From: Rhizophagus irregularis
Lineage: Eukaryota > Glomeromycota > Glomeromycetes > Glomerales > Glomeraceae
Assembly (NCBI RefSeq): GCF_026210795.1
Contig: NC_089454.1
Span: forward strand, 1,736,001 to 1,800,000
Reading direction: 5' to 3'
DNA length: 64,000 nt
Shown: positions 2,206 to 31,558 of the stretch, in pieces
Layout of the letters: every line of letters begins with the position of its first letter
Position numbering within the stretch: the stretch's first letter is position 1
The notes under the pieces: model-generated
Seen by the model: only the letters and a program-made list of their open reading frames with translations
Told to the model about the DNA's origin: nothing
Databases searched by the model: none
Program-made: the position numbers and the translations under genes

Positions 2206-3185
2206 ACTATATTATAAGCAGACAGTGTCTAAAAGAAAAATTTCACGTTTTTAACATAACGTATTATTATAAGGTCATTAGAAAAAAAATAGTAAGATCA
2301 AAGTATACTTGAAATATATATGAGATGTACCGTAGTAAAATATTTTTTTAAAAAAAAGAGACAACGTAAAACGTCACAAGTTAATATATATATTATTTTT
2401 ATTTTTGTTTTTTTTTAAAAAAAAAAAAATGAATACTAAACCAATAAAAAAAAGGTTTAAAATAAAGAAAAATTTTTTTAAAGAACAATATAATATAAAC
2501 TTCTTAACAAAAAAGGGGAAAAGAAAAAAAAAAGAGGACTGAAAGAAAAAGAATAAGAAAAAGAAAGAAAAAGGGGAAGAAAGGGTGAAGGATTCACAAT
2601 ATTAGAGTTTTACAATAAGTATTTATAATGTGCGGCAGAAAAATTTTGGTAACTTAAAACGGTTATTTAATATGTAAATAATTTTCTTTCTCTTTCTTTC
2701 CTCTATAGCCTCATTTTTTTCTCTCTTGCAGTAGATACTACTAAAACTAAAGGTTGTGCAAATTACACTTAACCCGTACGGGGATTATAACGACTTTTTC
2801 ATCACTCATCAGTTATCCAAGTTATCCAGTTATCACCAGTTTTTTTTTTTTTTTTTTGAAAAAATCTGATAAATATAATACTGTCAATAAACAAAAATAC
2901 AAAATCGGTTAGAATACCCGCCAATTACAATATTTGTATACAAGTTGGGGACAGTTGGCTGAATTTCTACTTTATGTGTCATGTGAGATGTAAATCTTAA
3001 ATTTGTGAAAAGAAAAAAATCAAGTTTTGGTACAATGAAAAAATCCGATGCATTCAAAAACTAATTTGCAACACAAACCCCAACGATCTGACCAATGTCA
3101 AAAAAAAACACAATTGATCAAATAAGAATAAGAAATAACGTATAATAGTAATAATAACTTTAATTATTTCTAAACCCTAAAGCTT
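2206..3185. other. Intergenic, no gene seen
   Basis: AT-rich with many A and T homopolymers, including a T16 run near 2841. It lies upstream of the Sec2-like gene and downstream of the MYSM1-like gene, so it should hold the Sec2 promoter and the other gene's 3' end. I see no conserved reading frame, tRNA or repeat pair. Confidence 0.6.
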
Positions 3186-5648
3186 TTAACTTAATATTGA
3201 TTCTTTTGTTGCATCACTTCCGAGTTTGCTTGCTTCTTCATTCTTATTGGGACGGAAGTCATCACTCATTAATTCCCTTACTTGAGAAATAAAGGTTTCA
3301 GCTGCCTTTGAGGAAACATTTATATGTGATGACAATGACTCGATCAATTTATCAAGCCTTGAAACTTCTTCATCTTTCCGATAAGTTTCACTCATATTAA
3401 CGCGCCTGCATATGATGAACAATGATTGTTCCATTAATTCATTGTGTATTATTGTAACCATTGGCAAAATTTTATATATCATACTTACTGATCGTAATTA
3501 TGATATTCTTCGACTAAACTCGCCATTTGTGAAAATGTTTCTTCTTGCAAGTTTTCATTTTGTAAAAATGAATGCTGGCATGAATAAGGCGTTCCTGAAA
3601 AGGTAAAGCGCAATAAAGAATTACTAATCGCAAACAATAAACCCGAATAAAGAACTAAATTAAATAGAAATTAATACAGACTGAATTGTCCAGAAAGATC
3701 GTAATTTGTACCACTCATCCAAAATTGAAATCTTGATACATTAGAATCATGTTCAATATCATACGGTGTAACAATAACACCGATAAATGGTTCCACACCG
3801 TCTTCGCGTCGCCACATTTCCTATTAATAAGAAAGGAACATATTAACGATGAATATACCCCCTTATTCATTTTATAATTTTTTACCTGATATTGAGTCTG
3901 GTTTTCAATATCTCTAATAGAAGGTTGAGGATCAAATGTTGGGTGAGAATGATACCATCCAACAAATTCAAGACCTTTCTCAGCGAAAACTTCCCTAGCT
4001 GCAACTTCAGACGCAGGATCCATTTCACACTATAATAACGTAATATCTATCACTACAAAAAAAAATATTTTAATATTAAATAGTATTAAAATAAAATACC
4101 TGAAATCCAGTACTTGAACTTTTACAAGGATATACGTATATTACTTCCATGATTTCACGATCAGAAAAATAATGACCACCAAGTAAACCAATTATTTCCG
4201 TATGCGCCAAATGAGCGTGGAAATCCATCAAGAGCTATAATTTACAATCACATCAATTAAGGATTATTCGAAAAGATTTTTTTTCCAAATGCATATTACT
4301 CATACCATAACGTTCATCGAAACTGATACTCGAAACGGCGCAGGATTTCTCGATGTATAATGATGTGGTGGAACCAACCGAAAAGGATCATAAGAACCTA
4401 CCATATCATATGCTAGAGCATCGTAACGTTATTTGTTAAGGTATTACAATGTAATTACAAGTTGATTTATAAATTTCTTTTAATAGAAGGATATTTCGTT
4501 ATAATTGATTCGTCCCCCATTTTTATTGGTACGGGACCTTTTGCTTCGGCGTATGGGAACGTCATCTTAATTATTATCCAAGTACGATAACACTTCATTT
4601 ATCATTGATCGAATATGCTATTATTTTTTCAAAAAAAAAAAGAACAATTCGATAATATTTATACCTCCCGTCGGCTCCACACTATTTTCTTTAGATCCAT
4701 TTAGATTTTCCCTTGAACGTAAAAAAAAAAATGTATACATGTTTTTTAAGGTAAAAAAATGTATGAAATTTACATAATTAGCCTTAAAAAGAATTATTTG
4801 CTCTTACCATTCGCCATTATCGTTAAGAACTTTGATCCCACTTTATGATCGAAAAGGATTAAAGTTCAAAACGTTCCTATCAAATTAAGCAATTTGTCAA
4901 AATATGATTCATTGTTCTTACCGTCCTCGACGATAGTCACTATCTTCCAACTTCCCTTTACGTTTTATATTAGTATTTGATTTCTTTGTAGTCTCATCAA
5001 GTGATTTTCTCTTTACAGGACGCTTCTCTTTTTTTACGGAATCCTTGCCAATATTAATTGCTCCTATTGACTCCAGATATAAATGAACTCGTCCAATCGC
5101 ATTTACATCACCACAATCCTGGTCAAATCATCATTAATTATTAGTTTTTAAAAAAGAATAAGGTATGGATAATATATGAAAATACCTTAAGTCCTGGTCT
5201 GACGCTTGTTTTAGAAACGAATTTCGGTTGACTTTTTAACCAAGCATTTAAAATATAATTCCTAATTTTCATGTAACGTTCAGGCGTTTTCAATCCTCTT
5301 CCAACAAAAAATTCTATATTACTTTGTCTTTCTTCTTCACTGATAATTGATTGATCAATTATCTGAGCACAAAAAAATGAAAGTCAATGAACATCATCCA
5401 AATTCGATAAAATACAAATTGAATTTTAAAAGAACAAAGAATCCACTTCATATATTCACCATCTCCTTAATCGAGCTTTTTTCAGCTAAATTCGAACTCG
5501 TACCTTCACCCAATTCTCTCGATTTGTCGATAGAATCGGAAAACTCTGCAGGGGGTGAAGAAGTCGCGTCTTTTTCCGATTGATACGCGTCACGAGTCGA
5601 TGTTGAAGCTTTTTCCACAGCCTCCTCGGAACTAAATGAACTAGTCAT
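3186..5648 (-). CDS. SWIRM-MPN+ (JAMM) histone H2A deubiquitinase, MYSM1-like
   Basis: This is a multi-exon minus-strand gene from ATG at 5648 to TAA at 3186-3188. The N-terminal exon is Ser/Glu-rich. Exon 2 (to about 5197) and the next one encode a SWIRM domain, seen as [19 protein letters not shown] and then [20 protein letters not shown] basic linker ([18 protein letters not shown]) suits nuclear entry. The MPN+ domain lies at about 4380-3715. It has the upstream Glu in [12 protein letters not shown] and the complete zinc motif H-x-H-x7-S-x2-D in [16 protein letters not shown], so it should be an active metalloprotease. The C-terminal exon (from about 3407) is predicted coiled coil. Family knowledge: MYSM1 removes ubiquitin from histone H2A and binds chromatin through SWIRM. 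No Myb/SANT domain of animal MYSM1 is visible. Small middle exons near 4500-4860 are uncertain. Confidence 0.85.
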
Positions 5649-21958: not shown

Positions 21959-24692
21959 ATGTCATCAGTCTCAAAACAAAAACGTTTGGCCAAAAAAGCC
22001 GCCAAAAATTCAAAGAAGCCAGAAGAAACACCCGATGTAAACGGCTCATCTACTAATAAAGAAACTATTGAGAATAGTACTGCAGCCGCTGCTAACGGCT
22101 TGTCTTTGGAAACATTAAAGATCTCTGGCGAAAGAACTGCTACTGGTGTATTGGCTTCACAGCCCAGATCAAGAGATATTAAGATTGAGCAATATAGTTT
22201 ATCTTTTTATGGGCGTGTGTTGGTCGATAATGCAACAATTGAACTTAATTTCGGTAGACGGTACGTTATTTGATCTACTCGTTTTTTTTTTTGACATTCT
22301 TTTCGAGTTGTTGAATACTTAGTAAAGTAATTTGACCGGTCTTTTTAAATTTAGATATGGTCTAATAGGTGCAAATGGTTCAGGAAAGAGCACTTTCTTG
22401 GCGTCTTTGGCCGCGAGAGAAGCTCCAATTCCGGAGCACATTGATGTATGTATAAATTAATATTTTTGCTTTCATTTATTACTTTTAATTCGACTGAAGA
22501 TTAATCAACATTTCATTGCATTTTATAGATATATTTATTAAATCAGGAAGCGGAACCTTGTGATCTTAATGCTATCGACTATGTCATATTGGCAGCAAAG
22601 AGTGAAATTACTCGGTAATTATCAAAGATCTTTTATAATGTATGCAATATTGGTTTAGAATTTATTAAGGTTTCTTCAATTTGTATTTAATTTTTAGTCT
22701 TGAAAAAGAAGTTGAGGATATACTGGCAGAGGCAGAAGGCGCGGAAGACCTAAGATTAGAAGATTTGTATGATCGTATTAATGCTCTCGATGAGTCGACA
22801 TTTAAATCTCGTGCTAGCACTCTCCTTCATGGATTAGGTTTCTCTCAAGAAATGATGGCCAAAAAAACTAGAGATATGTCTGGTGGTTGGAGAATGCGAG
22901 TAGCGCTCGCAAAAGCTTTATTCATTAAACCTACTTTATTGTTGTTAGATGAACCAAGTAAGCTTAAGAAAATTTATATAATCTTTTTTTTTTATTTAAA
23001 ATGTTTTCAATCTTTTTTTATTAATAATGATTTTTTTTTTTAGCAAATCATTTGGATTTGGAAGCTTGTGTTTGGCTCGAAGAGTATTTAAAGAATTATA
23101 ATCGGTAAGTTAGATCAAAAATAGTAGAAATTATTAAAGTTTATATTTTGAATGTTAATATCATTAATTTTTTTTTTATTTTAGTATTTTACTTTTGGTC
23201 AGTCATTCTCAAGATTTTCTTGATGGTGTATGCAATGAAACTATGCATTTAACGGAAAAGAAAAAATTAAATTATTACGGAGGTGGATACTCTTCTTTCG
23301 TAAAGACTAAAGCAGAAATGGAAGTAAACCAAATGAAGGCATATCATAAACAACAGGAAGAAATTGCACACATTAAAAAATTCATTGCTTCGGCTGGTAC
23401 ATACGCTAATCTTGTAAGTGAATAACGAATATTTTTTACAGAAATTGACGAATAATTTTATTATTAATATTATTCTAATTCGTATAAATTTAACCTCTAA
23501 TAGGTCAAGCAAGCCAAAAGTAAACAAAAAATCATTGACAAGATGGAAGCTGCCGGTTTAATTGAAAAAGTACGTGTATATTTATTTATGTTTATATCAT
23601 GATTTTGAATTTCTCTAACGGTTTAATATGACGTTATTATAGGTCGAACCACCCATCACATTCAAATTCAAATTTGAAAATGTTGAAAAACTTCCTCCAC
23701 CGGTATTACAATTCGATCAAGTATCTTTCTCTTATAGCGGAAGCAGTAAAACTGTAGATTTGTTATATAAAGATCTTGATCTAGCGGTGGATTTGGATTC
23801 TCGTGTAGCTCTTGTGGGACCTAATGGTGATTATCTTGATTGGTTTGAATTTTATTGTAAAATAATAAAAATATTTATACTTACATTATTATTTTTAAAA
23901 TTTAATTAGGCGTGGGGAAAAGTACTTTGTTAAAATTGATGATGGGCGAGATTCAACCTGTGAAAGGTAGAATCGCTCGCCATACTAATTTGAAATTGGC
24001 CAAATACAGCCAGCATAGGTCTGTATATAAACTTTTCAAACTTTTCAAAATTTAGTTCCTCATACATTAATTTTCTAACATTTTGATTTGATTACTTTTT
24101 AGCGCTGATCAACTTGATATGGATTTGAGTCCAATTAATTATATGAGAAAAAATTTTGCTCATCTGAATGGAGATATTGATGTGAGTTTATGCAAATATA
24201 AATACAGATGCTATTTGATCATTATCTCATGTATAACATTTTTATTTTTAATTTTTTTGGAATTAAAATAGTTTTGGCGAAGTCAAATCGGACGATATGG
24301 TCTTACAGGCATTCACCAAACGAATGCCATCAAGACTTTGAGTGATGGATTAAAATCTCGATTAGTTTTCGCCGAACTGGTATTATCGAAACCAGACATT
24401 GTTCTTATGGACGAACCTACAAATCATTTGGTAATTATTTCTTTTGTACTTTCTTTCATTGAAAAACTTTGAATTTAACGAAATTATCCATCTTTAGGAC
24501 ATGGAAAGTATTGACGGACTTGCAAAAGCTATAAAAGAATATTCGGGTGGCGTAGTGCTAGTATCCCACGATTTCCGATTAATTTCTCAGGTAGCAAACG
24601 ATATATGGTTATGTAAAGATAAAAAAGTAACCACATGGAAAGGTACTATTGAAGAATATAAGAAATATCTTGCTAAAGGGGTTAAAATTTAA
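21959..24692 (+). CDS. ARB1: ABC-F ATPase, ribosome biogenesis factor Arb1/ABCF2
   Basis: Start at 21959 opens with a Lys/Ala-rich extension ([15 protein letters not shown]) typical of Arb1/ABCF2. About eight introns interrupt two ABC domains and there are no membrane segments. Domain 1 has Walker [10 protein letters not shown], signature [16 protein letters not shown], and Walker B LLLLDEPTNHLDLEA split by an intron after EP. A coiled linker ([18 protein letters not shown]) joins the halves. Domain 2 has GPNGVGKST, signature [15 protein letters not shown] and [13 protein letters not shown], then [11 protein letters not shown]. Family knowledge: Arb1 is an essential cytoplasmic and nuclear ATPase for 40S and 60S biogenesis and 60S quality control. 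The second signature has Leu where LSDGQ is usual; I record this as an oddity. AAATTTAATTAG at 24686 closes the gene. Confidence 0.95.
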
Positions 24693-26065: not shown

Positions 26066-26242
26066 CAGTTCACCCTCGCTATAGTGAAGCTCATGGGCTG
26101 AAGGTTAAGATTCACTATAGTAAGGGATTCACTATAGCGAAGGTGAACTGTATTAAGAATTATTAAAAATCCGTACCTGAGCTTTTCTTTACTATAGCAA
26201 ATTATTCACTATATAAAAATTCACTATAGCGAGGGTGAACTG
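26066..26242. mobile_element. Tc1/mariner-type (pogo-like) MITE with perfect 23-bp terminal repeats
   Basis: The left end CAGTTCACCCTCGCTATAG (26066 onward, 23 bases to 26088) is the exact reverse complement of 26220-26242. Both ends are flanked by TA (26064-26065 and 26243-26244), the target duplication of Tc1/mariner elements. CAGT termini suggest the pogo/Tigger branch. A nearly identical third copy of the terminal repeat (one mismatch) ends at 26150, also followed by TA, so an 85-base element is nested within the 177-base one. There is no coding capacity. Confidence 0.85.
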
Positions 26243-26339: not shown

Positions 26340-26695
26340 GGAGACGTGTAGGCTAGCACGCATTATGATAATTTTAAGAAAATCCGTTGTCTTGTGAATG
26401 ATTGTCATTATAAGCTGGTTAAATGGCTTTGTGAGAATTATCATATTATATTACTACCTGAATTCCGCACTCAAGAAATGATCCGACGTGGGCAACGACG
26501 AATTGGATCCAAGACTGCTTCGAGCCATGTGTACATGGTCACATTTTCGCTTTCGATAGCATTTGATCCATAAGGCACGTGAATATCCATGGTGTAATTT
26601 GCACAGAAGATTAAACAAGCAAAACTTGTGGATTCTGTGGATATATCCATAAAAAACTAAGCGGATCTAAAGAATTTATAAATGGTGCTCTTACG
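26340..26695 (+). pseudogene. Decayed TnpB/Fanzor (IS605 OrfB-like) C-terminal fragment
   Basis: Conceptual reading across frames gives KLVKWLCENYHIILLPEF, then RTQEMIRRGQRRIGSKTA. After a frame change come MCTWSHFRFR-stop-HLIHKAREYPWC and, in another frame, TSKTCGFCGYIHKKLSG followed by SKEF and NGAL. This order (helical segment, LLPEF with the RuvC glutamate, QEM.RRG..R, WSH.RFR..L..KA, then the TSKTC..CG zinc-finger half) is the C-terminal signature of TnpB/Fanzor nucleases. At least two in-frame stops and two frame changes, loss of the second zinc-finger CxxC and of the terminal D-R-D-x-N-G-A-R block except NGA, and no N-terminal half show it is dead. Family knowledge: TnpB and Fanzor are RNA-guided DNA endonucleases carried by transposons. 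The neighbouring MITE at 26066-26242 may be unrelated. Confidence 0.75.
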
Positions 26696-27151
26696 ATGTC
26701 TCACAAAAAAGGAAAAAGAGTCAGCTTAGGCTGACCCTTACAGAACTTATTATTGCCTAAATTAAACTTGGTTTTGTTAGTAATGATAGGTTTTAATGTA
26801 GGCCGCCCATTTTATTTATCACTTGAGTACGGTGTCACATGGGGCGGCATACTCTTTGCTTACTCATTTATATTTGAAAATAAAAATTTTGTTATTTCTT
26901 ATAATATATATATATTGTCATATTTCAGTTATATCATATGAAAATATTGATATTAATATATTTCTTTATTGTTTATGTATAATATTAAATACTTAAATAC
27001 AAATTAAACATCAAAATAGAATGATTAATGAATAATAAATTTGATATACGTTTCCCTTATAATTAATATGATGTGAACTTAAAAATAATCCTATAAAAAA
27101 AAAAAATTTAAATTAATTTCTAAATTATAACATATTTTTAAAAAATATATA
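26696..27151. other. Intergenic, no gene seen
   Basis: 3' flank of the Serinc gene. The frame at 26753-26941 has no recognised similarity. A short imperfect hairpin (GGCCGCCCA at about 26801 against TGGGGCGGC at about 26841) is the only structure I see. Confidence 0.45.
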
Positions 27152-28799
27152 TCACAAACTTACTACAAATCTATCAGGTAAAAGAACTGGGCCAATAAGA
27201 GTCCAAGAATATAATAATATGCAAATCCAGCTAGAAATAACTTTTACCCAAACAGCAATATAAGTTTGCCCGATAACAACTAATTTTTCATCAGAATTAA
27301 TAGTAGTAACATTATTCCAATTAGTAAGCAGCATAGCAACATACATAGAAGCTATAGCAAAAATTAAGTGAAAGAATGCATAATTATAAGCAACCCCATT
27401 TTTTTCATCATCTTTAACATCATAATCATCGTCGTCATCATCATCTAAAGCTGAAGCAGGCATAGCACCACTTTCAACAGCGGCTGTTAATGCATCAGAT
27501 CTCATATTGCTTGGAAAACCTTCAGGTTGGCTTGTCACTAAAGGCACAGCCGAAGCTGTATTTAATGGATGGTAATCAGATTTCGTAATTAATGCTCTCC
27601 CTTGTGTAGCGGCTCTTGATGTTGAATAAGATATAGCTAAAAAGGTAAATAAAGCCCCAATAACAAGGGTGGTTGTTCTTGTTCCTCTACTTCTTGTTAA
27701 TGGATTACACATATTATCATCAGGTTCATTTGCAACTGCGCTCAATATAACATAAGTACAATAAATTATAACCATTGAAGCTTGTGGTAATCCTGATCTT
27801 GGATTCGCATCTTGTACTTTCGGTGAAATACTTATAGCAGTTACAATCAAACATAATATAAGATTAAATGTAATAAGGAATTGATTAAGTTTACATCCAG
27901 ATCCAGCAAAGTATCCATACATAATTCCTGTTAGTGCAATTGTTCCGATCAGCATTGCAATTGTTGATCCTATAAGGATATATTTCCATCGATTATCCTC
28001 CTCATATTCATATTTTTCTAAACATTTCTCGCTCCATGTATGCGCAAAATCTACTAATAATACCAATCCAACTAATATAAATATTGTTGCCCCAAATAAT
28101 GCAATATAATTTCCCCAGAACATGAAAAATCCATTAGGAATAAAGAAGGAAATTATTACAAATGTTATCCATAATAAAATTTTCGGTCCCCACCATCTAT
28201 AAAATCATAAAAAATTAGTAATATATAAAAAAATAAATTCGAAAATACAACAATTTTTTGTTAATTACCCATTTTGAATGGATGCTCGCTTATCATGGGT
28301 ATCATTGACTCCAATTACTAAAAGTCCCAAAAAGAAATGGAACAATGAAAGCGCAAAGCAAATACGATGTACTGCAAGCACTCCATAACAAGATCCATCG
28401 TCTTTACATTTCAGGTGTAGGTAATCGTAAGTCACTTTCTCTAGTTGTCTAATTGCCCAGTCGGATAACATTATCCATGAGAACTATGTATGTATATGTA
28501 CATGTTGAAATTAGAAGCACGAAGGAAAAATTAAAGAAAAAAGACTCGATAATTCTTACCATGGAATTCAAAAGAAATATTATCTATGAAAGTAGGTTGA
28601 AAGTTAGCTCAATCAAGATATACAACATAACTGAAACATTGTTTATTCTTACCGCAAACCCGACCCTTGTAGCAATAGAGTTATTGCAATTACATGATTT
28701 AAAAGCTAAAGTACAGGCTGCTGCAGAAAAACAAGAAGCAACAGTAGAAGCTATCCAAGACGCAGCACCAACTCCAAGGCAACTGAAAGGAATCCCCAT
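27152..28799 (-). CDS. TMS1: Serine incorporator (Serinc/TMS1) membrane protein
   Basis: Four exons join in frame to a 476-residue protein: 28799-28653, 28583-28560, 28483-28269 and 28196-27152. Exon 2 is a 24-base micro-exon (IIFLLNSM). The protein opens MGIPFSCLGVGAASW, followed by a Cys-rich segment (CFSAAACTLAFKSCNC) and the TRVGFA motif, as in yeast Tms1. About ten membrane segments follow. Conserved blocks include SVNDTH-like GVNDTHDKRASIQNG, WWGPKILLW, and ISPKVQDANPRSGLPQAS. A cytoplasmic loop carries a run of seven Asp residues (DDDDDDD). The end is WVKVISSWICILLYSWTLIGP. Family knowledge: TMS1/Serinc proteins sit in vacuolar or plasma membranes; a role in serine-lipid incorporation was proposed and lipid scramblase activity is reported for animal members. 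Length fits the family. Confidence 0.95.
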
Positions 28800-28971: not shown

Positions 28972-31558
28972 ATGACCACAATCAAAGTGTAAGTAAAAGA
29001 AACAATCGATAGAATTATTGTTTCTTTTTGATCTAATTTTTATATATTTTTTTTCTTGTAGTTTAACTGTTGGTTCAGCAAATGGGAAACTCGCCGAACT
29101 TTTTGCAGGAGTTAATAAGATCAACAATAAATTCGGACCTTTCGATTTATTATTATGTGTTGGTGATTTTTTCGGAGAAGATAACACGGAGATAGAATCT
29201 TTAATTTCTGGTGAAATCAAAGGTACGCATTCAGTTTTAAAGTAAAATTTCATTTTTTGAATTTTTAAATTCATGATTCGTTTCAATTAATAGTGCCAAT
29301 CACGTCCTATTTCATGTATGGTGAACGTGAATTACCTGATATCGTAAAAGAGCGCATTGCAAGTAATAATGGTGAATTTTGCCCGAATCTGTTTTACCTT
29401 GGTAAGATACCAGTATATACGCGTAATCTTGAGTTATTTACTATTATCTTTGTATTTACGAGTCTCTCCTTAATAAAGGTCAAAAAGGTAGCATTAACAC
29501 AATACATGGTGTGAAAATCGCGTTCGTTAGTGGTATATTGGATTCACCGATAACCGATCTTCCTAATACGGTGGATATTCTTCTCACACATGAATGGCCA
29601 GAATCTGTGACTAACCTTTCTACACAGAATCTACCTACGAATGTCAAAGGATCAGAGCATGTTGCAAACGCAGCTTTAGCTGTGAAGCCAAGGTATCATT
29701 TTGCTTCTTCAGAAAAGATCTTCTATCAAAGAGAACCTTATCAGAATTCTCCTTCTCCACATTTAATAAATAATGATGATGATTCTCAAATGCAATTTGG
29801 ACATCCAACTTGGTTTATTGGTTTAGCAGAAGTGGGTAATTCTTCAAAGTCAAAGGTTAGTTATAAACAGGAAAATGTTATGTATGATTATCTTTCTTTT
29901 TAAAAAACACCTTTATTAACAGCAAATCTTATAAAAGTGGTACTATGGCTTCAATCTTGTTCCATTTGTACATTTATCTCCGTCGGCATTCGCAAGTCCC
30001 CCAGATAGGTTGACCGAATGTCCTTTTATTAAAAGAAAGAGAGGATTTGGAGATGATTCGTCTGCTGTAAGATTAATTTACGTTTATTTCATTTATATAT
30101 ATTTTTTTCTTTTCTTTTTTTTTAATTATAAAATTTCTCCTTTAGGGAAATAATTATTTTTGGAATACAGGTGATACATCAGAACCATCTACTAAACGTG
30201 GTAAACGAAATAATCACGGTAAAAAAAGAAAGAAAAAAAATAATAAAATGAATTTTTTTTTTCTAAATTTTCTATATTAGATTCTTATTTATAATAACTT
30301 TGCATTCTTTCTTCTTTCTGAATTTAGAGTATATATGCAATAAATGTAATAATCCTGGGCATCACATTAGAGAATGTCCTGAATTGAAAGATCCGAATAA
30401 AAAATTCGGTGCTAGAAAACCGCCCAAAAATTATGTCTGTAATAAATGTAAACAAGCGGGCGTTCACTATATCATAAATTGTCCTGAATACACGTGTAAT
30501 CTTTGTGGTGAAAATGGCCATTTGGTCAAAGATTGTCCTAACCCTTACAAGAGTAAGAAAAATCATAACAAAACAGGTATTTATAATAATATTTTTTTTT
30601 TTTGCTTTGTATCTATATTAATAATTTTTTTTTTCACTTAGCTACTCCTCCATGTTGGTTCTGTTTGTCAAATCCGAAAACAGTCAAACAGTATGTATTT
30701 TTCTTTTAATTAACCATGTTTGTAATGATTTATTAGTACTAATTTGCTAAGTAATTTATCATTATTATTTAAAAGTTTAATTGTTTCTCTTGGTGATGAA
30801 ATTTATTTGTCGGTAGGTATAAAATAGTTTACCTTGTAAAAGAATATCTATTTTCTTAATATTATTTTAACATTTTTTAAAGTTAGCTAAAGGTCCCTTG
30901 ACTGATAGCCAAGATAAAAATATTTCGCAAGTTCCTGGAGGTGGTCATGTATTATTAGTAACAATTCAACACCATCCAACTTTTCGAGACGTTCCAATTG
31001 AAGATCAAGTTAATATGATGAATGAACTTGAGAAATATAAAAGTTCATTGAAAACTTTATTTCGTAAATATGATGCAGATATGGTTATATATGAAGTATC
31101 TAGAGCTGGTGGGACACAACAACACTATCATCTACAGGTTGTTCCTGTACCCATTCGATTTAATTCAAATATGATAAGAGAAGCTTTTGTAAAAGAAGCT
31201 TCAGATTCTGGATTCGAATTACATCCAACATCAACATCGCTACCTTCACATTATTTTAAAGTTGATTTACCCGAGGGTACATCATTGGTTCATGAAATTA
31301 ATCCTGATGAAAAATTTGACGTTCAATTTGGAAGGTATGTAAAAATCAAAACTTGTGTGTTAAAAATTTTTAATATATTAATATATTTATTTTTTTTCAA
31401 TGAAAATATTTTGTAGGAAAGTTCTTGCAAATTTGCTGGGATGTAGTGAACGCACTGATTGGAGAGCATGCAAATTAGATGAAGAACAAGAACGATTGGA
31501 TGCAAATAAATTTAGAGAAGCATTTACACCTTACGATCCCATGATTGAAAGGAGTTAA
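28972..31558 (+). CDS. CWF19L1: CWF19-like protein 1 (Drn1/CwfJ family) with zinc knuckles
   Basis: Exon 1 is MTTIKV at 28972-28988, followed by about eight more exons to TAA at 31556-31558. The N-terminal half is the calcineurin-like (catalytically incomplete) domain seen in CWF19L1: LTVGSANGKLAELFAGV, FGPFDLLLCVGDFFGE, VDILLTHEWPESV and KPRYHFASSEKIFYQREPY. Then PFVHLSPSAFASPP and the basic FIKRKRGFG. The centre has three zinc knuckles: CNKCNNPGHHIREC, CNKCKQAGVHYIINC and CNLCGENGHLVKDC. The C-terminus carries the CwfJ_C_1 HIT-like domain (PPCWFCLSNP, ending in HYHLQVVPVP) and CwfJ_C_2 (FDVQFGRKVLANLLGCSERTDW). Family knowledge: Drn1/CWF19L1 acts with the debranching enzyme Dbr1 and late spliceosomes in lariat turnover. 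Knuckles are not part of the human protein as I recall it. Confidence 0.93.

Follow-up and report, generated by a model that had tools for sequence, protein, structure and literature searches.

Does a short run of frame-shifted, stop-interrupted protein motifs in the genome of Rhizophagus irregularis represent the remains of a TnpB/Fanzor-type RNA-guided nuclease, a distant cousin of CRISPR-Cas12, and if so, of which lineage and in what condition? The window, by which we mean the whole 64,000-nucleotide stretch analyzed here, corresponds to C26:1736001-1800000, and the genome searched for relatives comprised 146.7 Mb in 32 contigs (29% GC). The reading we favor, with a probability of roughly 0.93, is that the locus is an IS607-type transposon copy, now dead and truncated at its 5' end, that once carried a Fanzor2 RNA-guided nuclease. 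Judged from its sequence, the interval 26370-26677 reads as a Fanzor2 fossil of the IS607 type, covering the RuvC/zinc-finger portion that makes up the C-terminal half of a TnpB/Fanzor protein (Table 1). The superfamily marks occur in the expected order, namely the RuvC-II region, a W-S-H-[FY]-R-F-R helix, and a TSKTCxxCG zinc finger. A preliminary description of this DNA had listed LLPEF, QEM, WSHFRFR and TSKTCGFCG, in that order and with stops and frame changes; all were found, distributed over three frames with two stops, and in the first coding piece NFKKIRCLV (from 26370), LLPEF (26451-26465) and QEMIRRGQRR (26472-26501) share a single frame. The coordinates given at that time, 26340-26695, enclose the coding motifs but end too early, as the element runs past 26695 to about 26803.

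Table 1. Features of the Fanzor2/IS607 remnant and neighboring genes, in window coordinates; L059 and L060 are related copies elsewhere in the genome
Feature	Coordinates	Strand	Evidence
Whole Fanzor2/IS607 remnant: decayed C-terminal coding region and right end, 5' truncated	26370-26803	+	L059 tblastn; L060 DNA match
Coding piece 1, NFKKIRCLV...LLPEFRTQEMIRRGQRRIGSKTA; RuvC-II region, Pro at canonical Glu position	26370-26519	+	
Coding piece 2 in a shifted frame, MCTWSHFRFR*HLIHKAREYPWC; interrupted by stop TAG at 26557	26527-26595	+	
Coding piece 3 in the third frame, CTED*TSKTCGFCGYIHKKLSGSKEF; includes the first zinc knuckle, Asp in place of the alternative Glu, and stop TAA at 26612	26600-26677	+	
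Rest of the C-terminus, from which deletions seen against L060 have removed the second zinc knuckle and the RuvC-III Asp	26678-26718	+	window vs L060 sequences
Candidate guide-RNA scaffold stem, 26744-26754 with 26779-26792	26744-26792	+	fold z = -2.8
Candidate pseudoknot arm 1, GCCTA (L060: GCTTA), start of stem loop	26755-26759	+	
Candidate pseudoknot arm 2, TAGGC (L060: TAAGC), at inferred right boundary	26799-26803	+	
ABC-type ATPase exons	21959-23043	+	
Serinc membrane protein	27152-28123	-	
CwfJ/HIT-domain protein	30898-31416	+	

The claim that this is a Fanzor/TnpB fossil was borne out by protein-level comparison. When the open 139-residue C-terminal frame of the paralogue L059 was compared with the window by tblastn, a protein search of the kind suggested at the outset, the match reached E = 1.6e-20 over the three frame-shifted pieces, whose segments scored 65.5, 48.9 and 41.6 bits. 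A read-through composite of the pieces is 45% identical to the TnpB of a Microcoleus phage, a cyanophage (E = 1e-21), and matches the solved structure 9b0l, annotated as 'TnpB-like protein L79', with E = 3e-5. By itself the composite scores marginally with the Pfam and NCBIfam models (E = 0.009 and 0.003, respectively), as is expected because it is a decayed fragment, and its paralogues clear Pfam PF07282 with E = 5e-18 and 3e-16. An Rfam search gave no match. The frames were picked by eye and single pieces fall below the Pfam cut-offs, features that would suit an accidental likeness arising in AT-rich non-coding sequence, or a zinc-finger protein of no relation; against this, the best match in 100 Markov-1 simulated 64-kb windows, built to match the dinucleotide composition of the real one, scored 25.4 bits compared with 65.5 for the fossil, and a second copy carrying the same motifs exists at 93% DNA identity. 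Paralogue and simulation together rule out chance or an unrelated zinc-finger protein, an explanation whose probability we regard as practically nil.

That second copy, L060 on contig C13, is the closest in the genome (93% identity over 259 aligned columns) and provides the reference against which the lesions of the window copy can be read. Its DNA matches the window at 93% over 26427-26677 and at 72% over 26688-26803, with 8 substitutions among 249 aligned sites (K2P 0.033) in addition to indels, and it is itself frame-shifted. Relative to L060, the window carries a 1-nt insertion before the second coding piece and an 8-nt deletion at the end of that piece. By these sequence criteria the window copy is dead, because its N-terminal half is lost, indels and two stops interrupt the frame, the alternative catalytic Glu is lost, and the RuvC-III Asp and second zinc knuckle are deleted. 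A search across the window for the N-terminal half, the transposase TnpA and the left end of the element returned nothing significant.

Which branch of the superfamily the fossil derives from can be approached through two fingerprints of Fanzors: a DPG motif in RuvC-I and a catalytic Glu that lies six residues ahead of the zinc finger and replaces the canonical Glu approximately 50 residues upstream (PMC10711439). The paralogues L059 and L061 carry both, as SLDPGVRTF and EEYTSKTC, and in these two copies the canonical Glu position aligns with the Pro of VLLPEF or ILLPEF. The alternative Glu without the canonical one is also present in L060, and DPG is found additionally in L065 and L066; the RuvC-I region is missing from the fossil and from L060, and the fossil shows Asp in place of the alternative Glu and, again, Pro at the canonical position. 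The Glu of LLPEF, a motif listed in the preliminary description, is therefore not catalytic, because Pro occupies the canonical position and the catalytic Glu of this lineage lies just before the zinc finger. Both fingerprints also occur in the closest relatives outside the genome.

Fanzor2 proteins of IS607-type elements (Bao and Jurka 2013, PMC3627910; Saito et al. 2023, PMC10432273; PMC10711439) display the same RuvC/zinc-finger order as the fossil, share DPG and the alternative Glu with its relatives, and likewise have a TnpA, here beside a sister copy, and a candidate pseudoknot at the right end; unlike them, the window copy is truncated and inactivated. The pro-Fanzors, cyanobacterial IS607 TnpBs from Okeania, Hydrocoleum, a Trichormus plasmid and a Microcoleus phage, are 41-53% identical to L059 in the C-terminal domain and resemble it in the fingerprints (DPG seen for Okeania and Hydrocoleum, the alternative Glu in all four), but they are prokaryotic and intact and fall outside the fungal clade of the fossil in our tree. 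At the sequence level, the best solved relative of both the L059 paralogue (3.9e-17) and the composite is the TnpB-like protein L79, which we take to be a mimivirus protein. Fanzor1 proteins such as SpuFz1 have the same RuvC and zinc-finger order but are larger and carried by ordinary DNA transposons, and no Fanzor1-labelled match appeared among solved structures at E <= 0.01 with the paralogue as query.

A Fanzor1 remnant in an ordinary eukaryotic DNA transposon, for example one of Tc1/mariner type, nevertheless deserves weighing, as mariner-type elements in fungi often carry Fanzor1 (PMC3627910) and a MITE lies approximately 128 bp upstream of the fossil. This MITE (26066-26242) is 177 bp long, Tc1/mariner-like and TA-flanked, with terminal inverted repeats CAGTTCACCCTCGC; at least 40 copies were scored genome-wide, most at 91-95% identity. 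It occurs at dozens of other sites without a Fanzor, and the fossil's own affinities point elsewhere: the closest solved structure is TnpB-like L79, the closest relatives are cyanobacterial, phage and IMG/VR proteins of TnpB/Fanzor2 type, and an IS607 TnpA accompanies the sister copy L067. We therefore set aside a Fanzor1 in a mariner element as very improbable, and regard the adjoining MITE as an unrelated high-copy repeat. The exclusion is indirect because the tree held no Fanzor1 sequence; on sequence affinities, the fossil appears to belong to the Fanzor2/pro-Fanzor lineage and not to Fanzor1.

Assignment to IS607 rests on the relatives because the window copy is without TnpA, the N-terminal half and the left end. 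Upstream of sister copy L067, in the same orientation, lies a fragment with a match to NF033518, the model for the IS607 transposase (E = 7.6e-18), and a second TnpA fragment occurs at L063 (E = 2.9e-12). The Pfam Resolvase model matched two loci only across the genome, and TnpA has therefore decayed as well. At L066, the Fanzor2 segment (2835-3626) seems to lie in the opposite orientation to the TnpA remnant and right end that flank it. An empty site, sought with the two flanks of L059 joined, was not found.

How widely has this family spread, and does any member survive? Searching the genome with the fossil composite yielded 31 matches at approximately 20 loci, representing several lineages on many contigs, and the Pfam zinc-ribbon model yielded 13 matches. 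The longest copy is L059, on contig C11, with a 347-residue open frame that includes a helix-turn-helix domain (PF12323, E = 9e-10) and the 139-residue frame, the two being parted by an insertion or frameshift and a stop. Among the candidate matches scored and the loci read, no intact Fanzor2 copy was found. The preliminary description had proposed that the genome carries or carried active Fanzors and that an intact relative might exist elsewhere: the past tense is supported, whereas the present tense is not, given the broken state of the best copy, and the intact relative did not materialize among the loci read.

In a maximum-likelihood tree of the C-terminal segment, the fossil, L060 and L067 form a clade (support 100), which joins L059, L061, L062, L069 and L030 (100) and, at the next node, a second in-genome group (97). 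L063 and L064/L065/L068 are two additional lineages, placed apart from these among viral and bacterial relatives. The tree leaves the deeper branching and the direction of transfer undecided, because it comprises at most 139 columns and its deep supports are low. Its topology also bears on the proposal that the fossil is a recent bacterial TnpB, from an endosymbiont or contaminant, and not a eukaryotic Fanzor. Cyanobacterial TnpBs and a cyanophage protein, 45-53% identical, are indeed among the closest outside relatives, but the copies within the genome group together as a clade (97), the approximately 20 decayed relatives are spread over many contigs, and the locus is flanked by fungal Serinc and ABC-ATPase genes in a contig of several megabases, such that a recent bacterial origin has a very small probability. 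As a separate observation, the closest outside relatives of the fossil clade in the tree are two near-alike sequences (100), L083 and L108: a contig from IMG/VR and one from a horse-faeces MAG, the latter labelled Paludibacteraceae. These are possibly mis-binned eukaryotic or viral DNA.

Beyond the coding remnant, the conserved 3' non-coding end that had been predicted to exist among relatives is present in the fossil itself and common to L060, finishing in GTTTTGTTAGTAATGATAGGTTTTAATGTA(G/A)GC. A genome-wide pattern search allowing up to 3 mismatches located the 30-base core of this right end in two places only, the window and L060. The interval 26700-26803 folds better than shuffles (z = -2.8), with a minimum-energy fold that pairs the terminal bases otherwise, in a competing, nested arrangement. 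The candidate pseudoknot is seen in two sequences: in each, the five terminal bases are complementary to bases in the loop of the stem that precedes them, and the arms of the two differ by one compensatory pair (C-G to T-A). When the columns of the alignment of these two sequences were shuffled, 11 of 20,000 trials reached paired and compensated arms. A pseudoknot of this type is reported to be needed for IS607 TnpB activity and is predicted for Fanzor2 (PMC10711439). We infer that 26744-26803 is the fossil guide-RNA scaffold end, with 26803 the putative right boundary. In other lineages, whose right ends differ in sequence, candidate arms can be drawn as CCCGC/GCGGG (L059, L061, L079) and GATGG/CCATC (L064, L065), and these count as consistent only, because on single sequences they are not significant (shuffle p about 0.22-0.26); the first arm is lost in L062, L069 and L030.

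Matches to the L059 right end cluster on C11:1526059-1712166 and also occur at C21:3508760-3508860 (L078, L079 and others), and some have no Fanzor2 coding match detected nearby. At C11:1532209-1532438, a piece of the L059 upstream region and the right end are separated by approximately 60 bp, an arrangement resembling a non-autonomous copy with an internal deletion, and C2:918226-921632 carries the upstream repeat and downstream flank of L059 (96% over 205 bp) but not the right end or Fanzor2. One could suppose that right-end-only copies (L078, L079 and the C11 cluster) retain a scaffold but no nuclease and have acted, or still act, as a source of trans-acting guides for a Fanzor2 encoded at another site, be it in this strain or a different one, while arms co-evolve in each lineage; we consider this unlikely.

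By analogy with its family, the living element would have been moved by a TnpA serine recombinase of IS607 type. A transcript running through the 3' end would have given rise to the guide RNA, with the scaffold ending at the right boundary of the element and the adjacent host sequence serving as the guide portion. Fanzor2 and this guide RNA may then have cut matching DNA, such as an empty donor site, favoring retention of the element. The activity, transcription, guide use and exact right boundary portrayed here are all presumed.

Fz2 proteins are found broadly in fungi (Saito et al., PMC10432273), and the fossil is a decayed member of this already known family. Full-text literature searches combining Rhizophagus with Fanzor, TnpB or IS607 yielded no publication dealing specifically with this fungus; an earlier listing in supplementary tables is possible. 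In a curated R. irregularis transposon survey, the search domains listed are reverse transcriptases, named transposase superfamilies and tyrosine recombinases, with neither TnpB/Fanzor nor serine recombinase among them (PMC11075540). The present analysis documents IS607-type Fanzor2 elements of several lineages, together with candidate guide-RNA ends, in an arbuscular mycorrhizal fungus. The fossil itself is of no use as a tool, and with its right end it tells somewhat more than its coding part would alone. Decayed copies of this kind indicate that a guide-RNA end can still be read from fossils, and they serve as markers when the movement of such elements between bacteria, viruses and fungi is traced.
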